Origin: Sulfolobaceae archaeon
Lineage (GTDB): Archaea > Thermoproteota > Thermoprotei_A > Sulfolobales > Sulfolobaceae
NCBI GenBank assembly: GCA_026627305.1
Contig: JAPNVD010000008.1
Coordinates: 1 to 64,000 of the forward strand
Direction: 5' to 3'
Length of the DNA: 64,000 nt
Part shown: piece by piece, positions 28,534 through 36,741 of the stretch
Layout of the letters: each line of letters opens with the position of its first letter
How positions within the stretch are numbered: the first letter of the stretch is position 1
Translations under genes and position numbers: made by a program
The notes under the pieces: model-generated
What the model was told of the DNA's origin: nothing
What the model saw: the letters and a program-made list of their open reading frames with translations, nothing else
The model's database searches: none

Positions 28534-28989
28534 ATGGCACTAGAGGTTGGAACTCAAGCACCTGACTTTCAAGCGGAATCCACTCAAGGCACTATAGTTC
28601 TCTCAGAGATACTAAAGAAGTATAAGGCTGTAGTACTGTATTTTTACCCTAAAGCGTTTACATCAGGCTGTACTAGAGAGCTCAACAGATTTGTGGAACT
28701 CTATGACGAGTTTAAGAACAGAAACGTTGAGATAATAGGCGTTAGTGCAGACTCCGTATCAACCCAAAAGAAGTTCGCTGAAAAATATGGCGCAAAGTTT
28801 CCATTAATTGGAGATAAGGAGAAAAAGGTCATAAACCTTTATGGAGTCCTGAACGAAAGGGGAACAAGTGCTGAAAGGGTTACCTTCATAATTTCAAACG
28901 ATATGAAAATTGTTAACGTATTCAGCAAGTTGAAGAAGGCAGAGGAGCACGCAGACAAGGCATTAGAGGCTATAAAACAATTATCGTAA
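28534..28989 (+). CDS. Peroxiredoxin, Bcp/PrxQ type with a single cysteine
   Basis: Thiol peroxidase of 151 residues that reduces hydroperoxides. The peroxidatic Cys is in FTSGCTRELNRF; the resolving Cys found five residues later in typical PrxQ proteins is replaced by Asn, and there is no other Cys. It thus fits the 1-Cys Bcp3-like member of the four Sulfolobus Bcp enzymes. ATTAAAG at about 28504-28510 lies 26 bases above the ATG. It overlaps the convergent 73-residue gene by 9 bases. Confidence 0.92.
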   Translation: MALEVGTQAPDFQAESTQGTIVLSEILKKYKAVVLYFYPKAFTSGCTRELNRFVELYDEFKNRNVEIIGVSADSVSTQKKFAEKYGAKFPLIGDKEKKVINLYGVLNERGTSAERVTFIISNDMKIVNVFSKLKKAEEHADKALEAIKQLS

Positions 28990-29202
28990 GTGCCTGTACT
29001 CTAACAGGAGCTTTATCATACCGTCCTCAGTATCTTCTCCATCTATGATAGCAAAACCATACTTCATGGCTATAGAAGGTACTTGTTCTACTATATTTTC
29101 ACTGACTATTATCCCTATCGTATCTCCTATTCTCAGAGCCTTCTTACTATCAGCTAAAAACTCATCTACTTCACTTGTACTGTTAAGTAACGTATATTCC
29201 AT
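28981..29202 (-). CDS. Small conserved protein, unknown function
   Basis: A 73-residue acidic alpha/beta protein: IGDTIGIIVSENIVEQVPSI then AMKYGFAIIDGED and MIKLLLEYRHLR, a strand-helix-strand-helix layout reminiscent of TusA/SirA-sized proteins but without their Cys-Pro motif. CTTTAATATC at about 29225-29234 on the minus strand lies 26 bases above the ATG, supporting a real leaderless gene. The C/D box RNA at 29239-29294 ends just above that promoter. Confidence 0.62.
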   Translation of the reverse strand: MEYTLLNSTSEVDEFLADSKKALRIGDTIGIIVSENIVEQVPSIAMKYGFAIIDGEDTEDGMIKLLLEYRHLR

Positions 29203-29238
29203 AAATTGGAAGGCGAAATAGCTGATATTAAAGTTTTT

Positions 29239-29294
29239 GATCAGCCCGCTGAAAGTTCTTCACAGTTCATTCTCCCCGAAAAACTCATCATCCT
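29239..29294 (-). ncRNA. C/D box guide RNA
   Basis: Minus-strand boxes: C ATGATGA 29285-29291, degenerate D' ATGA 29267-29270, C' GTGAAGA 29257-29263, D CTGA 29241-29244. The D guide ACTTTCAGCGGG is complementary to CCCGCTGAAAGT, whose core matches, from memory, 23S rRNA CCGCUGAAAG near E. coli position 2740. The D' guide GTTTTTCGGGGAGA is complementary to TCTCCCCGAAAAAC, resembling the 23S segment UUCUCCCCGAAA near position 805. GTTTAAGT at about 29316-29323 lies 26 bases above the 5' end and is the likely promoter. Confidence 0.83.
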
Positions 29295-29323
29295 TATATA
29301 ATAATACCAATAAATCTACTTAA
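29293..29323. promoter_or_regulatory. Overlapping divergent TATA boxes of a guide RNA and a small gene
   Basis: CTTATATAATA at 29293-29303 is 26 bases before the ATG at 29326 on the plus strand, and ACTTAAAC at 29316-29323 is the TATA box of the minus-strand guide RNA beginning near 29294. Each promoter's TATA box lies at the other's transcription start, so the two transcripts should interfere. Confidence 0.5.
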
Positions 29324-29325
29324 AC

Positions 29326-29628
29326 ATGACTATTATCAGTGAAATAACTGCTTATAGAATACTCAAGTACGAGTACGACAACGCAATAAAGAATATAAAT
29401 AGTACGGGTAGATTGATATCCGTCCTTAGACATATTAAGAGTATCGTACAAGGACTACTTATTAGAATTAAAGACGTTTCTATTAGAGAAGTACTGATAA
29501 AACAATTAAACCTAATAAATAAAGCGCTATTCGTGCTTAAAGTCAGGTATCTTATCTACGCATTTTACAAGAGGATAATAAAGATGTTGCTCAACAGGTT
29601 AAAATCACTAATTTACGCAATTATGTGA
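29326..29628 (+). CDS. Small basic helical protein between two antisense guide RNAs
   Basis: A 100-residue, strongly basic, all-helical protein rich in Ile, Leu, Lys and Arg (LISVLRHIKSIVQGLLIRIK, VLKVRYLIYAFYKRIIKMLL). It might bind nucleic acid or lie on the membrane. I do not recognise it. The TATA box CTTATATAATA exactly 26 bases above the ATG supports expression as a leaderless mRNA. It is bracketed by two minus-strand C/D box RNAs, one ending directly at its stop codon. Function unknown. Confidence 0.55.
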   Translation: MTIISEITAYRILKYEYDNAIKNINSTGRLISVLRHIKSIVQGLLIRIKDVSIREVLIKQLNLINKALFVLKVRYLIYAFYKRIIKMLLNRLKSLIYAIM

Positions 29629-35081: not shown

Positions 35082-36687
35082 CATATATTTAACGCTTGTA
35101 CTAGCAACACTTGCTACAACAGGGAGAGTATGGCTAACAATAGGTCTCTCCATAGTAACTGGGTGGTTTTTAGGCTATATCGCTGTAAAGAATAGAGGTT
35201 TCGAGAACGTATATATATCATTTATAGAGGTTTTTGAGTCAGTTCCAGTTATAAGCTTCTTCCCCGTGGTTTTAATCTTCTTCATTTATAGAATTGGAGG
35301 TTATTTGGGCATAGAAATGGCTGTAGATTTTTTAGTTTTTACAGCAGTAGTCTGGAATATTTGGGTTGGGATATATCAGGCTTATAAAACCATTCCTGAA
35401 AATTTTTTAGAAGTAGTGGAAAATTATAGGTTAGGATTTCTTAGGAAATTTACAACGCTATATATACCATACTCCATGCCTAGGATTGCCGCAAACTTAA
35501 TCCCAAGCTTCGCTGATGCGTTCTTCTATATAACCGTAAGTGAGGTATTTTCTATAGGTACATCAGCATATCATGTTTTCGGCATTGGAGCAATTCTAGC
35601 TGAGCTAGTGAGTGAGGGAAGATATAATTTAGTACTAATAGGTTTAGGAATTCTTGCATTTGATACTACGTTAACTACATTCTTCCTTAGAAGATTTGCA
35701 ACGTATACCGTAGAACGTTATGGTATAGACACTGAAATAAAGACATATAAAAGAGGAAAGCCAAGAACCAGATATAATTTAAGGCTTACTAACACTTTAA
35801 CTACAGTAAAGAAGATTGCAAGCGCATTCTTGCCACCTAAAAAATATTATGATATATTAGCTGAGGAAAAGGAGAGAAATTATCACTTAAGGGAGATCGG
35901 TTATGCTTTGGCTTTCTTAGTTGTGGGTATAGTCTCTTATGGTGTTTTTACTACTGTCAAAAGTATAAGCGCTCATGAATGGTTTTCACTATTAGCTAAT
36001 ACACCATCGATGCTTTTAGGTTTAGCTGTAGATTATGCAAGGGTCGCTATTATAGCAATAATTTCATTCGTTATAGCAATATTCGTAGGATATTTACTTG
36101 CAGCGCATAGTCTAGCGGAAAAAATTGTAATACCTATAATTCAAGCAATAGCAGCATTTCCTGCTCCTGCTTATTTTCCACTACTTTTTGCCTCCACTTA
36201 TGTAATAGTTAGGGGAATCTTTGATCCATTAACAAATGAATTTTATGTATTATTATTAGGATTTATATCAACATTCTACTATGTATTTTACAGCTTCTGG
36301 TTAGGGGTGAAAAATTTACCATCAGAGTACTGGGAACTAATGGAGAACTTAAACTTAACCTTTTGGCAAAAACTTAGGAAAATAATATTGCCTGCAACGT
36401 TTCCATACATTGTAGCTGGTATTTCAAGTACTATTAATAGCGCGTGGGGAGGTCTAGCTATAGGAGAATATTGGCCAGATATCTATAACGGTTATACACT
36501 TCAAGTAAGGACAGGTTACATGAAAGATATAGCAGTTTACACGGATAGTGGTAACATAGCGTTTGCCGCTTGGTCTTCATTCCTGTTCGGGATAATAGTA
36601 GTTATATATTCAATACTCTTTACGAGGAAGCTCATGGACTTAGCGAGGAAAAGATATATAGCTGAGGAAGGAATATATGCGGCTTAG
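35074..36687 (+). CDS. ABC transporter permease, two fused membrane domains (NitT/TauT type)
   Basis: A 537-residue permease made of two BPD_transp_1 modules in tandem, each about 250 residues with its own EAA-like loop: YKTIPENFLEVVENYRLGFLRKFTTLYIPYSMP in the first, NLPSEYWELMENLNLTFWQKLRKIILPATFP in the second. One chain thus supplies both halves of the channel. ATG 35074 is used because GGTGA lies 5 bases before it; it overlaps the ATPase gene by 8 bases. No solute-binding protein gene adjoins. Substrate unknown; anions such as nitrate or sulfonates are the family norm. Confidence 0.88.
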   Translation: MNNIYLTLVLATLATTGRVWLTIGLSIVTGWFLGYIAVKNRGFENVYISFIEVFESVPVISFFPVVLIFFIYRIGGYLGIEMAVDFLVFTAVVWNIWVGIYQAYKTIPENFLEVVENYRLGFLRKFTTLYIPYSMPRIAANLIPSFADAFFYITVSEVFSIGTSAYHVFGIGAILAELVSEGRYNLVLIGLGILAFDTTLTTFFLRRFATYTVERYGIDTEIKTYKRGKPRTRYNLRLTNTLTTVKKIASAFLPPKKYYDILAEEKERNYHLREIGYALAFLVVGIVSYGVFTTVKSISAHEWFSLLANTPSMLLGLAVDYARVAIIAIISFVIAIFVGYLLAAHSLAEKIVIPIIQAIAAFPAPAYFPLLFASTYVIVRGIFDPLTNEFYVLLLGFISTFYYVFYSFWLGVKNLPSEYWELMENLNLTFWQKLRKIILPATFPYIVAGISSTINSAWGGLAIGEYWPDIYNGYTLQVRTGYMKDIAVYTDSGNIAFAAWSSFLFGIIVVIYSILFTRKLMDLARKRYIAEEGIYAA

Positions 36688-36741
36688 AGTGCTGAGGAAT
36701 CCGGGACCTGATTAATGAAGAAATGCGCGAGCACTGAGCCT
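36688..36741 (+). ncRNA. C/D box guide RNA (candidate)
   Basis: In the 61-base gap after the permease stop: weak C box CTGAGGA 36692-36698, D' CTGA 36708-36711, C' ATGAAGA 36715-36721, D CTGA 36734-36737. Guides: ATCCGGGAC (9 bases) and AATGCGCGAGCA (12 bases), complementary to GTCCCGGAT and TGCTCGCGCATT; targets not recognised. A T-rich run, CCTTTTTCTTTC, follows and may end the transcript. The C box deviates from RTGATGA at two positions, so confidence is lower than for the other guide RNAs. Confidence 0.6.

Follow-up and report, generated by a model that had tools for sequence, protein, structure and literature searches.

A predicted double-guide C/D box sRNA for two linked 23S rRNA sites in Sulfolobaceae

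The sRNA locus

The window, i.e. the whole 64,000-nucleotide stretch of DNA analysed here, is part of contig C38 of the draft genome G000 of a Sulfolobaceae archaeon (1.9 Mb, 79.5% complete). The first-pass annotation had placed a C/D box RNA at 29239–29294 and left the strand unstated; these coordinates are right, the boxes lie on the minus strand, and the two complementary cores that it named, CCGCTGAAAG and TCTCCCCGAAA, are both present in the interval when the plus strand is read. The features of the locus are as follows.

29239–29295, minus strand: C/D box sRNA gene, 57 nt; matched by sequence model R1 (29237–29295; see below) and spanned by sub-threshold Rfam C/D families, with ends predicted from relatives and box positions
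29285–29291, minus strand: C box ATGATGA, exact
29271–29284, minus strand: D' guide GTTTTTCGGGGAGA, 14 nt, of which 11 nt (TTTTCGGGGAG) pair with 23S rRNA
29267–29270, minus strand: D' box ATGA, one mismatch to CTGA (sequence, alignment A2)
29257–29263, minus strand: C' box GTGAAGA, one mismatch to RTGATGA (sequence, alignment A1)
29245–29256, minus strand: D guide ACTTTCAGCGGG, 12 nt, of which 10 nt (CTTTCAGCGG) pair with 23S rRNA
29241–29244, minus strand: D box CTGA, exact
29319–29324, minus strand: TATA-like TTTAAG, a candidate sRNA promoter element by position
29294–29301, plus strand: TATA-like TTATATAA, the 100-aa ORF's own element, abutting the sRNA 5' end and 25–32 bases ahead of the ORF's ATG
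29326–29628, plus strand: 100-aa ORF, divergent from the sRNA

Read 5' to 3', the sRNA consists of AAGG, C box, D' guide, D' box, three bases, C' box, D guide, D box and TC. It thus has the RTGATGA C box and CTGA D box near its ends that mark an archaeal C/D box sRNA, as well as internal D' and C' boxes, with one mismatch each, and guides near the expected length of about 12 nt (spacers of 14 and 12 nt). Of the boxes C, C' and D, all previously described as exact, C and D are so and C' carries its one mismatch. The TATA box formerly given at −26 corresponds to TTTAAG, which extends from −31 to −26 relative to G29293. Since TTATATAA abuts the sRNA start and precedes the ATG of the 100-aa ORF, the promoters of the two genes appear to be interleaved. 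Self-folding of the sRNA was unremarkable (z = −1.54).

The 100-aa ORF had no match in Pfam or NCBIfam. A 73-aa ORF downstream of the sRNA (28981–29202, minus strand) had no detectable relatives, no Pfam match and only sub-cut-off NCBIfam matches, and was absent from every printed cross-genus cluster; it was therefore left out as context and may not be a real gene. The window contains a second C/D box sRNA at 36685–36739 (plus strand), which exceeds the gathering score of Rfam family sR33 (RF01120).

Comparison with known sRNA families

At gathering score, none of 4227 Rfam families matched the window sRNA, and 14 relative sRNA loci (G014 counted twice) likewise gave no sRNA match in two scans; the second of these matched only a 23S gene, at an additional locus (L104). 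A permissive Rfam search of the neighbourhood gave 12 sub-threshold matches, 11 of them archaeal C/D box families lying across the sRNA span. The best of these, sR23 (RF01138), covered the whole span with 28.1 bits, but its gathering score of 45 bits was not reached and both of its guide sequences differ. The C, D', C', D order, the length of 57 nt, the two guides on linked rRNA sites and the five-nucleotide rule agree with archaeal double-guide C/D sRNAs as set out in PMC4644070 and PMC7994747, whereas the guide pair of the window corresponds to no Rfam family at gathering score. Text searches of the literature, including the guide strings and with supplementary sRNA lists (e.g. that of 61 S. 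acidocaldarius sRNAs) outside their scope, did not find the guide pair in print. The genes for the core proteins fibrillarin and Nop5 are adjacent on contig C15 of G000.

Target sites in 23S rRNA

Neither the Rfam archaeal LSU model nor the whole 23S sequence of a relative detected a 23S gene in the draft genome G000, and the targets were therefore read in relatives, where an LSU match was obtained in 11 of 12 genomes searched. In the 23S rRNA of relatives the D' guide forms 11 consecutive Watson-Crick pairs with CTCCCCGAAAA and the D guide forms 10 with CCGCTGAAAG, the fifth position being paired in both; each duplex has a mismatch at the base adjoining the D' or D box. The two matches begin 27 nt apart in G010, near the 3' end of the 23S rRNA, in what we take to be domain VI. 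Both guides had been proposed to fit conserved 23S motifs, and these motifs prove to be two adjacent segments close to the 3' end of the 23S rRNA. Alignment to E. coli 23S rRNA, combined with the fifth-nucleotide rule for locating the methylated residue (PMC4644070), places the predicted methyl groups on the residues equivalent to E. coli C2745 for the D guide and to C2772 for the D' guide. The D' box is degenerate among relatives, and the exact D' residue may therefore shift, e.g. by 2 nt in G003 and G013.

Among 200,000 composition-shuffled guide pairs compared with the 23S rRNA of one relative (G010), 298 had at least 11 consecutive pairs for D', 2076 had at least 10 for D, and five had both. 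Only one pair in 200,000 was as good as the real guides with both matches within 100 nt, which bears out the original argument that two targets in one RNA make chance unlikely.

Two forms of the sRNA in the order Sulfolobales

Model R1, built from nine relatives, was searched against 31 genomes of the same family (E ≤ 0.01) and matched 17, of which 12 were strong (E ≤ 2.1e-9; nine of these in the training set) and five were weak. The weak matches consisted of the D' guide beside a different D guide. When the search was widened to the order Sulfolobales with the broader model R2, trained on 16 rows, 60 of 147 genomes had a match (E ≤ 0.01). The best 30 of these loci were examined and, together with six more, yielded 36 sRNAs for comparison. 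Twelve, all from the family of the window, have the D guide CTTTCAGCG (state A); the remaining 24, from this and other families, have the D guide G[CT]GGTTA (state B).

The 31 same-family genomes comprise 12 with state A (genera g1, g4, g5 and g8), nine with state B (g3, g7, g9 and g11) and ten in which no sRNA was found (g2, g6 and g10). Among the genomes of these last three genera in which the targets were read, the targets were altered in two of two (g2), one of one (g6) and one of four (g10); in the other three readable g10 genomes they were intact although the sRNA was undetected. Strong matches to both forms were not seen together in any of the 31 family genomes. Weak second matches (E 0.005–0.008) occurred in some of them, e.g. 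G003 and G007.

State-B relatives such as G012, G015 and G060 resemble the window sRNA in having the same D' guide, with a covarying letter, and in directing the D guide to the same neighbouring 23S segment. They differ in their chromosomal sites and in the D guide itself, GCGGTTACYC, whose 23S partner, GGGUAACCGC, overlaps the state-A target and lies slightly upstream of it. The predicted residue is mostly the equivalent of U2739, 6 nt upstream of C2745; the D box placement in G010 leads to the neighbouring residue.

At all 12 state-A loci, in four genera, the sRNA is divergent from a homologue of the 100-aa ORF (single-linkage BLASTP clusters, E ≤ 1e-4). State-B sRNAs lie elsewhere, and their neighbouring genes in g3, g7 and g9 fall in other clusters. 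Slippage of the guide at one shared locus therefore does not account for the two forms: the original gene either changed both its location and its aim or gave way to another gene that carries the same D' guide. State A is probably the derived form, given that state B is present in other families. A partial-23S tree (27 of 28 rows long enough), which was poorly resolved, with some rows masked and one branch very long, did not settle whether state A has a single origin. A pattern scan of the genome collection gave one exact match, in Candidatus Aramenus sulfurataquae.

Covariation of guides and targets

Both the sRNA and the target sequence were available for 25 of the 36 sRNAs. Targets were shuffled among these genomes, a procedure that ignores shared ancestry. 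Real pairing amounted to 218 Watson-Crick pairs for the D' guide (shuffled-target mean 210.6; reached in 4 of 20,000 shuffles) and 222 for the D guide (mean 215.8; reached in 2 of 20,000). The D' guide has A in place of C in six of the 25 genomes (genera g3, g7 and g9) and T in one, G091. Five of the six with A have U instead of G in the 23S rRNA and all 19 others have G. The guide position (C or A) and the 23S letter (G or U) form a standard pair in 24 of 25. Similar matched letters were found for the D guide: G004 combines a 23S U with a guide A, in contrast to the C and G of the remaining readable g5 genomes. Matched letters in guide and 23S rRNA likewise occur in two state-B genomes, G044 and G042. 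In G003 and G013 the U is paired as a G-U wobble. Some duplexes are imperfect, with one D' mismatch in G138 and a mismatch at the far end of the D' duplex in G007 and G016.

The exception to D' covariation is G012, which has an A-G mismatch and what looks like a mosaic 23S gene. Its 23S sequence matches that of G028 (genus g5) over a stretch that starts about 400 bases ahead of the anchor CTGAAAGCATCTAAG and ends 30 bases past the anchor start, with identities of 198/200, 100/100, 85/86 and 44/44, as compared with 193/200, 92/100, 80/86 and 43/44 to G002 of its own genus, g3. Further downstream it agrees with G002 (60/60 and 80/80) and not with G028 (19/60 and 20/80, ungapped). The switch from g5-like to g3-like sequence (locus L058) lies near the D' target, and the g5-like stretch is some 400 bases long or more. 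G012 thus has a g5-like target and a g3-like guide.

Interpretation

From these comparative analyses we conclude, with a probability of roughly 0.9, that the feature is a conventional archaeal double-guide C/D box sRNA, predicted to guide 2'-O-methylation at two linked 23S sites. The first-pass annotation had read it as a double-guide RNA with both guides on 23S rRNA, and this reading is supported by the targets in relatives, the conserved position and the covariation. The sRNA's own promoter would drive leftward transcription, divergent from the small conserved ORF. L7Ae would bind the C/D and C'/D' k-turns, after which Nop5 and fibrillarin would join. The guides would then pair with the two segments 27 nt apart, and fibrillarin would 2'-O-methylate, for each guide, the residue paired with the fifth nucleotide ahead of the D or D' box, namely the C2745 and C2772 equivalents. 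Judged from the rRNA sequence, each target seems to start within the 5' arm of a local hairpin, and binding of the sRNA may thus also hold two hairpins open during folding.

This last point raises the question of whether the RNA is chiefly a folding chaperone for the two neighbouring hairpins, with methylation secondary. Chaperoning has been proposed for such sRNAs (PMC4644070), and it would suit both the short distance between the two paired segments and the observation that the D guide residue differs between lineages while the same small segment is kept, as if binding of the region outweighed any one residue. We nevertheless consider a chiefly chaperoning role unlikely: the RNA retains its D box and five-nucleotide spacing and the genome encodes fibrillarin, so that methylation is to be expected as well. 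At the other extreme, the imperfect C' and D' boxes might suggest a chance C/D-like intergenic sequence without an RNA product, but this is highly improbable given a locus conserved across four genera, guides that covary with the rRNA and a joint target match as rare as that found in the shuffles.

A separate question concerns the D guide, whose main target could be another 23S site, CCCGCTGAAGG (near E. coli 1892), either in place of the C2745 site or in addition to it. In G013, G001, G003 and G010 this site offers 10 Watson-Crick pairs and one G-U pair, including the base adjoining the D box. However, the two g5 genomes in which this site was read, G004 and G026, carry A at a position that must be G for pairing, the two g8 genomes differ as well, and both genera retain the guide; we therefore ranked this site second to that at C2745. 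The guide change in G004, moreover, suits the C2745 site, and we think it quite unlikely that the site near 1892 is the main target.

The order-wide comparison points tentatively, at a little below even odds, to the following history. The D' guide would be an anchor throughout the order; in one part of the family the D guide would have shifted its aim by about 6 nt within one rRNA segment while the gene took up a new locus, and the two forms would be mutually exclusive. Selection may then have acted on the joint binding of two neighbouring 23S hairpins and not on one fixed methyl group. If this is true, G012 with its recombined 23S segment represents a natural mispairing experiment.

This kind of sRNA is well known, and the interest of the present one is that one guide is re-aimed order-wide while the other stays. 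The analysis provides two testable predictions of 2'-O-methylation close to the 3' terminus of crenarchaeal 23S rRNA, away from the hotspots that PMC4644070 emphasizes. With one guide fixed, the other shifted by about 6 nt and guide letters that track the rRNA, the comparison across the Sulfolobales is well suited to asking whether it is methylation or folding for which such sRNAs are retained.
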